NCBI RefSeq assembly: GCF_002906575.1
Contig: NZ_CP026309.1
Span: 868,001 to 932,000, forward strand
DNA length: 64,000 nt
From: Salinigranum rubrum
GTDB lineage: Archaea > Halobacteriota > Halobacteria > Halobacteriales > Haloferacaceae
Reading direction: 5' to 3'
The stretch's first letter is position 1, and every line of letters starts with the position of its first letter. Below are positions 2-46,310 of this stretch, in pieces. The notes beneath the pieces are model-generated. The model did not search any database, was not told the DNA's origin, and saw nothing but the letters and a program-made list of their open reading frames with translations. The position numbers were made by a program, and so were the translations under genes.

Positions 2-3000
2 CGCGCCGAGAAGCTCACCGACCTCATCTACAACCCCGGCCACGACGGGGACAGCGACGTCTCGGGCCCCCGTGAGGCGTCCGTCACGGTCGTCCTCGCC
101 AACGACGACGGCACGCTCTCGCGCTCGCAGGTCGCCTCCGCCGCCGGGACGGACGACGTCGGCGACGTCGACGAGATAACTGTCAAGCGCCGCGTCAAGC
201 GGACCGAGGAGAACTACTACTCGTACTACTACCTCAACGGGCGCTCGGTGAACCTTTCGGACATTCGGGACCTCCTCGCGCAGGCGGGCATCACGCCCGA
301 GGGCTACAACGTCGTCATGCAGGGCGACGTCACCGAAATCATCAACACCACGCCGTATCGCCGGAGAGAGATCGTCGACGAGATCGCCGGCGTCGCCGAG
401 TTCGACGCGAAGAAGGCCGACGCTTTCGAAGAGTTAGAGGCGGTCAAAGAGCGGGTCGAGGAGGTCGACCTCCGCATCGAGGAGAAGGAAGACCGACTCG
501 AACAGCTAGAGGACGAGCGCGAGACGGCTCTCCAGTACCAGGACCTCCGCGAGGAGAAAGAGGAGTACGAGGGGTATCTGAAGGCGGCCGAGTTGGAGGA
601 GAAACGCTCCGACCTCGCGTCTACAGAGAAGAAGGTCGAGGCGACCGAGCAGGAACTCGCCGACGTTCAGGCCACGCTCGACGAGCGGCAGGGAGCGGTC
701 TCCCGACTCGAATCCGAACTGGAGGAGCTCACCCGCGAAATCGAGCGGAAGGGCGAGGACGAGCAGCTGAGAATCAAGTCCGAGATGGAGGAGATCAAAG
801 GCGAGATCCGCTCGCTGGAGAACGACATCGAGGCCGCAGAAGAGCGCAAGGAGGGCGCAGAGAACGAGCGCCGGAAGGCGTTCGTCGAACTCGACCGCAA
901 GAACGAGCGCATCTCGGACCTCGAAAGCGAGATCAGACAGACGAAAGTCGAGAAGGCGTCGGTCAAATCCGAGACCCAGTCGACCGAGGCCGACCTCGCC
1001 GAGGTCGAAGCGGAGATCGAGAGCGTCGACACGGCGTTCGACGAACTGAAGTCCGACCTCCAGGAGAAGAAAGAGCGCCGGGAGTCGCTCAAATCCGAGC
1101 GGAACGACCTCCAGCGCGAGAAGGACCGCCTCCTCGACGACGCCCGCCGCCGCTCGAACGAACTCTCCGAGGCGCGCGACGAACTCTCCGAGGCGAAAGA
1201 GGCCATCCCGAGAAGAAGAGGCGCATCTCGGAACTGCACTCCGAACTGGACAAGGCGGAGAAGAACAAGGCGAAGATCGACGACGTCATCGACGACCTCC
1301 GCGAGAAGAAGCAAGAACTGAAAGAGCAGCTCTCGGAGGTCGAGAGCGACCTCAGAGGCAAGCAGAACGAGTACGCCGAACTCGAAGCCCGCGCGGGCAG
1401 AGACGGCGACGACTCCTATCCACGGTCCGTCACGACCATACTCAACGCGAGCATCTCGGGCGTCCACGGCACCGTCGGCCAACTCGGTGCCGTCTCCGGC
1501 GAGTACGCCACCGCGTGTGAGACGGCCGCCGGCGGTCGGCTGGCCCACGTCGTCGTCGACGACGACGGCGTCGGCTCCTCGTGTATCGACTACCTCAAAT
1601 CCAGGAACGCCGGCCGTGCGACCTTCCTGCCCATCTCGAAGATGGACGACCGGAGCCTCCCCCGAAAGCCCTCTCACGCGGGCGTCGTCGACTTCGCACG
1701 GAACCTCGTCGACTTCGACGCCCGGTACGACCCGGTGTTCTCCTACGTCCTCGGCGCGACGCTCGTCGTCGAGGACATGCAGACGGCACGGGACCTGATG
1801 GGCCAGTACCGGATGGTGACGCTCGACGGCGACCTCGTCGAGAAATCGGGCGCGATGACCGGCGGTTCCGGCTCAGGCTCCCGCTACTCCTTCTCGAAGT
1901 CGGGCAAAGGAAAGCTCGAACGGCTCGCCGAGGAGATATCGGAACTCGAAGAGACGCGGCGCTCCTTCTCCGAAGAGATCGACGACGTCGAGAGCCGTCT
2001 CGACGACGCTCGCGGGCGGGCCTCGAACGCGCGTGACCAGGTCCGGTCCGTCGAGACGGACGTCGAGCACGCCGAAGAGGAGCTACAGGAGGCCGAAGCC
2101 CGCGTCGAGACGCTCGAGGAGCGAATCGAGGAGTTAGAGGGAAAACGCGAGTCCGTCTCCGACGAGATGTCGGCGCTCGACGCGGACATCGAGACCAAAG
2201 AGGACGATATCGAGTCGGTCGAGGCCGACATCGAGGGACTGGAGCAGGAACTCGCCGACTCGAAGATCCCGGAACTCTCGGCGAAGGCGGACGACCTCCG
2301 CGCCGAGATCGACGAGCACGAGGAGCGGATGGACGACCTCGACGCCCGGCTGAACGAACTCTCCCTGGAGAAGGAGTACGCCGAGGAGGCCATCGAGGAC
2401 CTCGAAGAGACCATCGAGTCGGCCCAGAACCGGAAGGCCGACGCGACGGAGACCATCGCCGAGAAGGAAGACGAGATCGAGACACAGGAGGAACGTCTCG
2501 AAGCGAAGCGCGAGGCAGTCGCCGACCTCGAAGACGAACTGGCCGAGCTGAAAGAAGAGCGGCGAGAGCTCCAGTCGGAGGTCCAAGAGGCCCGGGCGAA
2601 GCGCGACGCGCAGAGAGACCGGGTGAACAAGGTCGAGTCGAAGCTCGAATCGCTCGAATCGTCGGTCGACCGCCTCGAGTGGGAGATCGACGAACTCTCG
2701 ACCGAAGTGGGCGACTACGACCCCGACGAGGTGCCTGACCACGACACCGTCGAGTCAGAAATCGAGCGACTCGAAGGGGAGATGGAGGCGCTCGAACCGG
2801 TGAACATGCTGGCCATCGACGAGTACGACCGCGTCTCCGAGGACCTCGACGAGATGTGCGAGAAGCGCGACGTGCTCGTCGAGGAACGCGACGGGATCCG
2901 AGAACGCATCGAGCGGTACGAGTCGCTGAAGAAGGAGACGTTCATGGAGGCGTTCGACGCCATCAGCGAGCACTTCACCGACATCTTCGAGCGGCTCTCG

Positions 3001-3411
3001 AACGGGACCGGCGCGCTCGAACTCGAGAACCCGGAGGACCCCTTCGAGGCCGGACTGACGATGAAGGCCCAGCCGGGGGACAAGCCCATCCAACGACTGG
3101 ACGCGATGTCCGGCGGGGAGAAGTCGCTCACGGCGCTCGCGTTCATCTTCGCCATCCAGCGGTACAACCCCGCGCCCTTCTACGCGCTCGACGAGATCGA
3201 CGCCTTCCTCGACGCCGCGAACGCCGAGCGCGTCGGCGAGATGGTCGACGACCTCGCGGGCGACGCGCAGTTCGTCGTCGTCTCCCACCGGTCGGCGCTG
3301 CTGGAACGTTCCGAGCGGGCTATCGGCGTCACCATGCAGGGCAACAACGTCTCGGCAGTGACGGGCATCCGTCTCGGCGGTGACGCCGAGGAGGTGCCCG
3401 CGGATGACTGA
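2..3411 (+). CDS. smc: Chromosome segregation ATPase SMC (5' partial, frameshifted)
   Basis: SMC forms the ATP-driven ring that compacts and segregates chromosomes. The Walker A end lies before the window; reading starts inside the N-terminal head (RAEKLTDLIYNPG). It is followed by a long coiled coil, a hinge at about 1420-1870, the return coil, and a C-terminal head with signature MSGGEKSLTALAF, Walker B FYALDEIDAFLD and the VVVSHR switch. Frame 2 is coding to about 1209 and frame 1 thereafter. One C missing from the run at 1207-1209 explains the break exactly (AKEAIP continues as EKKRRISELH). All domains are present, so a sequencing error is at least as likely as a pseudogene. The stop overlaps scpA, indicating an operon. 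Confidence 0.93.
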
Positions 3412-44119: not shown

Positions 44120-44533
44120 TCAGCCGCCGAAGCCGATCCGACTGCCCGACGACCGCGATTCGTCGTCCGACTCCCCGACGTGTTCGAAGGTGTAGCCGTC
44201 CTCGGAGACGAACACCTCGCCGTCGTCGACTTCGACGTCGACGGTGGCGAGATACGACCCCTCACACGGGCCGAAGTTGCAGTACCCGGAACCGGACTCG
44301 AACGTCGCGGCGTGTTTCTGACAGACGATTTCGTCGTTCCGAACGAGCGCTCCCGACCCCTTGTCGAGCCGAACGTCGGTCCAGTGCTGACAATAGTTCT
44401 TGTACGCTGCTACGCCGTCGTCGAGCCGGGTGAGGATGACCTCTTCGAGTCCGTCGCCGTTCCGAAGCGTGACGAGAAGCGTCCCGTCCGTGGGGACGTC
44501 GTCGAGCGACGCGACGTGCCGGTCGTCGTCCAT
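44120..44533 (-). CDS. Rieske [2Fe-2S] domain protein
   Basis: A 137-aa soluble ferredoxin-like Rieske protein. Cluster ligands are CQHW (Cys-x-His) at about 48-50 and CQKH (Cys-x2-His) at about 70-73. CNFGPCEGSYLATVDVEVDD completes the domain with two further Cys. The short acidic tail (HVGESDDESRSSGSRIGFGG) is haloarchaeal. Such stand-alone Rieske proteins donate electrons to oxygenases or act in nitrite-reductase-like systems; no partner is adjacent. Confidence 0.88.
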   Translation of the reverse strand: MDDDRHVASLDDVPTDGTLLVTLRNGDGLEEVILTRLDDGVAAYKNYCQHWTDVRLDKGSGALVRNDEIVCQKHAATFESGSGYCNFGPCEGSYLATVDVEVDDGEVFVSEDGYTFEHVGESDDESRSSGSRIGFGG

Positions 44534-44583: not shown

Positions 44584-45060
44584 TCAGGTCCGGTCGAAGA
44601 GCGCGTTCGTGTACAGCGCGTCGACGTCGATTCCCTCGGGGTGGGCGAGCAGCACCGGCGTGTACCCGTGCGAGACGTCGTAGTCGTCGAGGGCGAAGGC
44701 GTTCAGGTCGATGCCGTCGCGTTCGGTCTGAATACCCTCCCACGGTATGAACACCCACGTCGCGTCCGCCTCGCCCTCGACGAGCGTGTGGGGAACGCCT
44801 AACTCGGCGGGGTGATGGTCCCCGGTTCCCCCCGCCCGCCATCGTTGCGAATCAATTGCCGGACGACGTCCTCTTCAAAACGCGCGTCGTACGACGCGTA
44901 GGTCAGATTGTCCAACTTTTTCGGTTGATATCTTCGACGCCAGGGCGCCGATAGCGCTGGTGTCGCGCTGACAGACCGTGGTGACGGCCGTCAGTGAGGG
45001 GTACTCGAGGCGGTGTTCCGGCGTGAACAGTGCCGGCGTGTCGTCGCCCTCGCTCGGGGT
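44584..45060 (-). pseudogene. Truncated ABC substrate-binding protein remnant (ThiY/NMT1-like)
   Basis: Directly after the pabC stop, minus-strand sequence encodes pieces of an NMT1/THI5-like binding protein: TPEHRLEYPSLTAVTTVCQR, SAIGALASK, then in another frame QPKKLDNLTYASYDARFEED and VVRQLIRNDGG, then in a third ATWVFIPWEGIQTERDG and ALDDYDVSHGYTPVLLAHP, ending VDALYTNALFDRT. There is no start codon. There are at least two frame changes (near 44930, and at the C run 44828-44833), and probably an internal deletion after LLAHP. The intact protein would bind a thiamine-precursor-like pyrimidine. Multiple lesions argue for genuine decay. Confidence 0.7.
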
Positions 45061-46085
45061 TCAATCGCCGCCGACGTCCCACTGGCTGTCGACGCCGGCG
45101 ACGCCGTCTTCGTGGTCGTCTTCACTCTCCCTGTCGGCGTCGCCGACGCGACCCCGGTAGTGTTCCCGCTCGACTCGCTCGTCGAACAGTCGCGAGAGGA
45201 GCGTCGTGACCGGACCGCCGCCGCACTCGATGCCGTCGACGGTCTCGACGGGCCGCAGTTCCCACGTCGTGTTCGTCACGAACACCTCGGCGGCGTTTCG
45301 GACGTCGTCGGGGGTGAACTGCTCCTCGCGGACGGGGATTCCCTCCTCCCGGGCGAGGTCGATGACGACGTCGCGGGTTACGCCGGGAAGCACCGGACCG
45401 TCGAGCGACGGCGTGCACAGCGCCTTCTCGGAGACGAAGAAGACGTTGCTCGTCGCACCCTCGGCGACGTACCCCTCGGCGTCGAGCACGAGCGCCTCGT
45501 CCGCACCGGTCACGCGGAGTTCGAGCCGGGCGAGAATCCCGTTCAGGTAGTTGTGCGTCTTCGCACGCGAGGGGATGGCACGGTCGGAAACGCGACGCGT
45601 CTTCACCGTCTGGACCGTCGCCGGGCCGTCCCAGACGGGTGTGCTCTCGCGGCCCCCCGCGGGAGTTCGTCGACCAGGACGACGACCGTCGGGTCGACTT
45701 CGGGGTCCGGAGTGAGCTTTCCCGGCTGGACGCCCCGGGTGACCGAGAGCCGGACGTACGCGTCGTCGAGGTCGTTCGCCGTCAGCGTCTCTCGGACGCG
45801 TCGGTGGAGGTCCGCGTCGGGGAGGCCGTGGTCGAGTTGGAGGACCTCGCACGTCCCGGCGAGTCGACGGGCGTGGGCGTCCCACGCGAACACCTCGCCG
45901 CCGTACGCTCGGAGCGTCTCGAACGCCGCGTCGCCGTACATGAACCCCCGGTCGCGGACCGAGACGGTCGCCTCTTCTGCCGGGAGCAGGTCGCCGTCGA
46001 CGTGATACAGGTACTCGCCGTCTCCCCTGCCGTCGCCGTTTCCGCCGCCATCGTCGCCTGTGGACGCCGTCGGGTCCTCGCTCAT
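45061..46085 (-). CDS. pabC: Aminodeoxychorismate lyase / BCAT-like aminotransferase (frameshifted)
   Basis: A PLP fold-IV enzyme converting aminodeoxychorismate to p-aminobenzoate for folate/methanopterin. N-terminal half: VSVRDRGFMYGDAAFETLRA, ARRLAGTCEVLQLD, YVRLSVTRGVQPGKLTPDPE. Catalytic Lys lies in the C-terminal half, in SRAKTHNYLNGILARLE, with VAEGATSNVFFVSEKALCTP. The two halves are in different frames. One base missing in the C run at 45653-45658 joins ELPRG to GRESTPVWDG. The corrected length is 342 codons including stop. The start overlaps the pabA remnant stop as ATGA, the normal pabB-pabA-pabC operon order. Confidence 0.82.
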
Positions 46086-46310
46086 CGGCACGAGTCGACG
46101 AACGCCGCCACCATCGTCTTTCCGGCCTCGGTGAGGATGCTCTCGGGGTGGAACTGGACGCCGACGTGCGGCTTCTCCGTGTGGCGCCGAGTCGGTCCGC
46201 GCCCGGCGGTACGCCGCGGAGGGGTCGTCGACCGTGACGCGAACCTCGACGGGAACGCGAGCAGCGGGCGGGGCCTCGCGGAACGGGTTCCGTCCGGTCA
46301 CCGGTTCCAT
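46082..46310 (-). pseudogene. pabB start fused by deletion to pabA end
   Basis: ATG 46310 begins like aminodeoxychorismate synthase component I (PabB: PAARVPVEVRVTVDDPSAAY, then RRAR). Near 46185-46195 the sequence changes to the C-terminal end of the glutamine amidotransferase component II in another frame (HTEKPHVGVQFHPESILTEA, then VAAFVDSCR and stop). The catalytic-triad HPE is present but the Cys-containing part and nearly all of pabB are missing. About 1.9 kb appears lost compared with an intact pabB-pabA pair. Either a real deletion or an assembly collapse. Confidence 0.72.

Follow-up and report, generated by a model that had tools for sequence, protein, structure and literature searches.

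Remnant of an NMT1/THI5-like gene beside a pab deletion in Salinigranum rubrum

A gene remnant between pabC and a Rieske-type gene

The genome of Salinigranum rubrum comprises 4.97 Mb in 6 contigs, and the stretch analyzed here, referred to as the window, is the 64-kb segment C1:868001-932000. Positions 44584-45010 of its minus strand carry what is left of an NMT1/THI5-like (PF09084) gene. A Pfam profile search recognizes the remnant on the minus strand with 35 bits (E 3.4e-8, profile positions 135-188), above the curated cut-off of 20.5, and its three-frame read-through is 66-75% identical to the intact genes of three same-genus genomes, which served as our reference sisters (G001, G002 and G003; the S. 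rubrum genome is G000). The match is not due to chance, since all three sisters (3/3) hold an intact gene of 310-317 aa in the same slot, in the order Rieske-type gene, NMT1/THI5-like gene, pabC. It is this intact order in close relatives that an earlier first-pass annotation of the window had proposed to look for. The features of the locus, all on the minus strand, are as follows.

44120..44533, minus: Rieske-type gene, intact, the conserved downstream neighbor
44584..45010, minus: NMT1/THI5-like remnant (PF09084), codons ~71-200 and the last ~15, in pieces of differing frames
44584..44631, minus: retained C-terminal codons IDVDALYTNALFDRT and stop
44625..44633, minus: deletion junction, in-frame loss of 294 bases (counted on G003) with a copy of ATCGACG on each side
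44638..44805, minus: piece C, ELGVPHTLVEGEADATWVF...LLAHP, frame shifted again after a 1-base loss
44805..44921, minus: piece B, KKLDNLTYASYD...ITPP, in another frame after a 5-base loss
44935..45003, minus: piece A, YPSLTAVTTVCQRDTSAIGALAS, the first readable homologous stretch, with no start codon upstream
45011..45060, minus: ~50 bases from the pabC stop to the remnant, with no recognizable similarity to the ~290-base stretch that G003 has in this place
45061..46085, minus: pabC (aminodeoxychorismate lyase type), split over two frames; a G/C run near 45660 has lost 1 base, and protein change is not in excess
46082..46310, minus: start of pabB fused to the end of pabA by a deletion of ~1.9 kb relative to G003

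The remnant has no start codon; DNA comparison with G003 shows that the gene start and the first ~70 codons are missing, with homologous DNA setting in around 45010, which corresponds to codon ~71 of an intact copy; the stop of pabC lies at 45061-45063. Two frame changes follow, the first from the loss of 5 bases near 44930 and the second from the loss of 1 base near 44805, both relative to G003. The 294-base deletion is in frame, and therefore the authentic C-terminus IDVDALYTNAL and its stop at 44584-44586 survive. Each of the lesions for which the first-pass annotation had called a real NMT1/THI5-like pseudogene, namely an absent start, at least two frame changes and an internal deletion, was borne out by codon reading and DNA comparison, and all are disabling relative to the intact orthologs of the same locus.

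Relaxed constraint and the adjoining pab deletion

An alignment of 21 intact orthologs has 59 invariant positions, and the remnant deviates at 9 of them (9/59); in a leave-one-out control, each of the 21 intact orthologs deviates at 0-3 of 59-62 invariant positions. Branch-specific dN/dS values, derived from the pairwise values by three-taxon arithmetic over 118 codons of the NMT1/THI5-like gene, are ~0.24-0.28 on the window branch and ~0.03-0.05 on the G003 branch. This excess is visible only after the branch split, the pairwise value between the window and G003 (0.149) being little above those of intact pairs (0.119-0.131). For neither pabC (291 codons) nor the Rieske-type gene (121 codons) does the window branch show a comparable excess. 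Because of its large deletions and the change at 9 of the 59 invariant positions, sequence comparison confirms the remnant as a true pseudogene rather than a functional short gene, a call that rests on one genome of the species.

The remnant does adjoin a deletion of the pab genes, as had been claimed: ~1.9 kb of pabAB is missing relative to G003, in which pabB adjoins pabC at this locus. PabB was not found anywhere in the S. rubrum genome by a whole-genome search for chorismate-binding genes, of which there are two, compared with three in each of the three sisters. It is counted as missing because both remaining genes appear, by their similarity and neighbors, to be of the TrpE type and the MenF type, names that were read from sequence. 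FolP-type domains are present in 4/4 Salinigranum genomes. As to the earlier suggestion that folate supply is affected, PabB is absent genome-wide while FolP-type domains persist, and an effect of the pab loss on the supply of folate precursors is plausible. A side observation concerns the sisters G001 (L034, C2) and G002 (L035, C2), where pabB lies elsewhere, beside genes that read as pabA-like and FolD-like. As to the age of the deletion, the pabA remnant is identical to G003 at 106 of 112 bases and pabC is still constrained, which suggests that the pab deletion is younger than the loss of the NMT1/THI5-like gene, with few sites behind this order of events.

A proposed history and its alternatives

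We interpret the locus as holding a genuine, moderately old pseudogene next to a separate pab deletion, the lost protein most likely being of a salvage type whose loss was probably tolerated (probability about 0.92). The Salinigranum ancestor would have possessed an intact gene of 310-317 aa between pabC and the Rieske-type gene, which came off selection in the S. rubrum lineage. The start and first quarter of the gene would then have been lost, together with the 294 bases between the 7-base repeats, as frame changes and substitutions accumulated, and the greater part of the adjoining pabAB would have gone in a separate, probably younger deletion.

That ThiD-ThiN, two TenA proteins, Thi4 and transporters were kept is probably why the cell tolerated losing the NMT1/THI5-like gene. 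ThiC is found in 0/4 Salinigranum genomes, whereas ThiN and TenA are each found in 4/4; Thi4 is clear in G000, G002 and G003 (3/4) and has no clear match in G001. A cluster in S. rubrum comprises ThiD-ThiN, two TenA proteins, a sodium:solute symporter and an Nramp gene, as named by Pfam from the G003 copies and mapped to S. rubrum by tblastn. This answers the suggestion to look for thiamine transporter or synthesis genes elsewhere, and, judged by gene content, the salvage set is still in place after the loss. The S. rubrum genome also has two other PF09084 matches, neither at this locus nor close in sequence, and both were rejected as replacements: L032 has a lipobox-like start (read by eye) and lies near an ABC ATPase, and L033 fits the TRAP TAXI family.

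Among the alternatives, the most probable builds on the first-pass annotation, which saw the 1.7-kb block as a hotspot of loss: a single event there would have abolished pab and NMT1 functions at once, with a drop in the supply of folate as well as thiamine. Both losses do lie within 1.7 kb and PabB is absent from the genome, but protein change is not in excess in pabC, which sits between them, and the close identity of the pabA remnant to G003 suggests that the pab deletion came later. The thiamine part of the claim is likewise unsupported, as the protein has no export signal, ThiC is missing genus-wide, and ThiN, ThiD-ThiN, TenA, Thi4 and the symporter remain. We consider a joint loss of this kind unlikely.

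Distinctly less probable is an assembly or sequencing artefact, in which the cell would in fact carry a whole gene and the apparent damage would come from a collapsed or error-rich stretch. The same assembly does contain 1-base losses in G/C runs, which hit an SMC-like gene, an Nramp-family gene and pabC. Compared with G001, the SMC-like gene (window 2-3408, plus strand) is 1 base short near 1220, where the surrounding bases are CCCGG; this is probably a residual assembly error. The Nramp-family gene of the thiamine cluster (L142:4660-5999; C1 ~2,955,660-2,957,000) is split by a 1-base G/C-run loss and intact in both G003 and G001. Since losses in G/C runs affect other genes too, single-base losses were not counted as proof of a pseudogene, and the 1-base loss of the remnant and the frameshift of pabC could be sequencing faults. 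A frame-break control against G002, covering 344 kb of the S. rubrum genome, flagged 9/116 genes and, in the reverse direction, 8/122, too noisy for a rate because most flags read as antisense or alternative-start frames; a narrower control over the window gave mostly flags of the same kind, plus pabC and SMC. However, residual indel errors do not make large deletions or change 9 invariant positions, and the Rieske-type and aroE-type genes on either side keep open reading frames under constraint. We therefore reject an artefact as the explanation of the whole, and retain it for the single-base losses.

That the truncated remnant encodes a functional short protein has next to no likelihood, for although the 294-base deletion preserved the reading frame, the start codon is absent, the frame changes twice and constraint is lost at invariant sites. 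A relative keeping the same short reading under selection had been named as the observation that would speak against decay; among 170 family and 392 order genomes, the short broken copy occurs only in S. rubrum. The reading as a pseudogene beside a separate pab deletion leads to the question of what the intact gene encodes.

The intact subfamily and its relation to ThiC

The intact ortholog of G003 scores 157 bits to PF09084. A profile of the orthologs matches ThiY-type and thiamin-type solute-binding proteins over nearly its full length, and these are the closest solved relatives: 4nmy (E 1e-44), which we take to be a thiamin binder, and 3ix1 (E 1e-27), a formyl-aminopyrimidine binding protein. 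The orthologs differ from these proteins in having neither a signal peptide nor an adjacent same-strand permease or ATPase. No export signal was seen in any of the 21 orthologs, a verdict drawn from frame lengths and inspection by eye of the conserved starts; 10/21 open at most 21 residues upstream of the conserved DWTPNTNH, and the rest were judged by eye. Nor does a same-strand permease or ATPase lie beside the gene in any of the 21 neighborhoods, as assessed by clustering, with Pfam applied to selected neighbors. G035 and, as judged by clustering, G131 do encode an importer near the gene, but on the opposite strand and with a binding protein of its own.

An AIR-synthase-like gene is found in 10/21 neighborhoods, in two families (e.g. 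L029:6794-7858), and in 5 of the ten it immediately precedes the NMT1/THI5-like gene in the same orientation. It matches Pfam AIRS and falls below the NCBIfam cut-offs for ThiL, HypE and SelD. No neighbor in the 21 loci proves a role in thiamin metabolism. Because the orthologs carry no signal peptide, the lost protein was probably not a subunit of a surface transporter. From homology and from the association with ThiC-less genomes described below, we infer that the intact gene most likely encodes a cytoplasmic protein of the ThiY/thiamin-binding fold, handling thiamin or a pyrimidine precursor in salvage.

Fungal THI5/THI13 (4esx, 4h65) belong to the same Pfam family and resemble the orthologs over most of their length, with a weaker profile match than 4nmy and 3ix1. 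To our knowledge THI5, too, is without an export signal. According to an excerpt of PMC10848271, His66 and Lys62 of THI5 take part in the reaction; in the alignment, Lys62 corresponds to A/G60 and His66 to S/T64 in the 21 orthologs. An HMP-P synthase activity of the fungal THI5 kind was rejected for the orthologs on the basis of these two missing residues.

ThiC (PF01964) is a protein unrelated to the orthologs and would perform the same step if the ortholog were a source of HMP. It is predicted in Haloferax volcanii as HVO_2154, according to a portion of PMC4215014, and the absence of thiC from some haloarchaea has already been published, for Haloarcula, as stated in a passage of PMC12029414. 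In our family sample, orthologs occur in 14/170 genomes (13 intact plus S. rubrum) and ThiC in 55/170, with zero overlap between the two. In the order sample, orthologs occur in 17/392 genomes, S. rubrum included, and ThiC in 236/392, being present in 2/17 carriers of the ortholog versus 234/375 non-carriers. Fisher's test gives p = 3.7e-5 in the order sample and p = 0.005 in the family sample, both uncorrected for kinship, and some of the carriers are incomplete genomes. As many genomes are without both genes, the NMT1/THI5-like gene is not a required substitute for ThiC.

The pseudogene itself is ordinary, and its interest lies in the conserved intact subfamily to which it points. No publication on this signal-less haloarchaeal subfamily was found by title or abstract. 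A protein of the thiamin-precursor fold without an export signal is a candidate pyrimidine source for ThiC-less haloarchaea, for which S. rubrum would be a natural knockout. We offer only as a speculative and rather doubtful idea that the orthologs form a cytoplasmic, non-THI5 branch that replaces ThiC in some haloarchaea, supplying the pyrimidine, with the AIR-synthase-like neighbor as partner, by novel chemistry or by salvage, and that this branch was secondarily lost in S. rubrum.

Both genes occur together in the order sample only in G356 and G409. The match in G409 is near full length, yet a TGA was counted within the matched stretch. In G356 (C3:212707-219555, L127), the NMT1/THI5-like gene lies ~5 kb from thiC.
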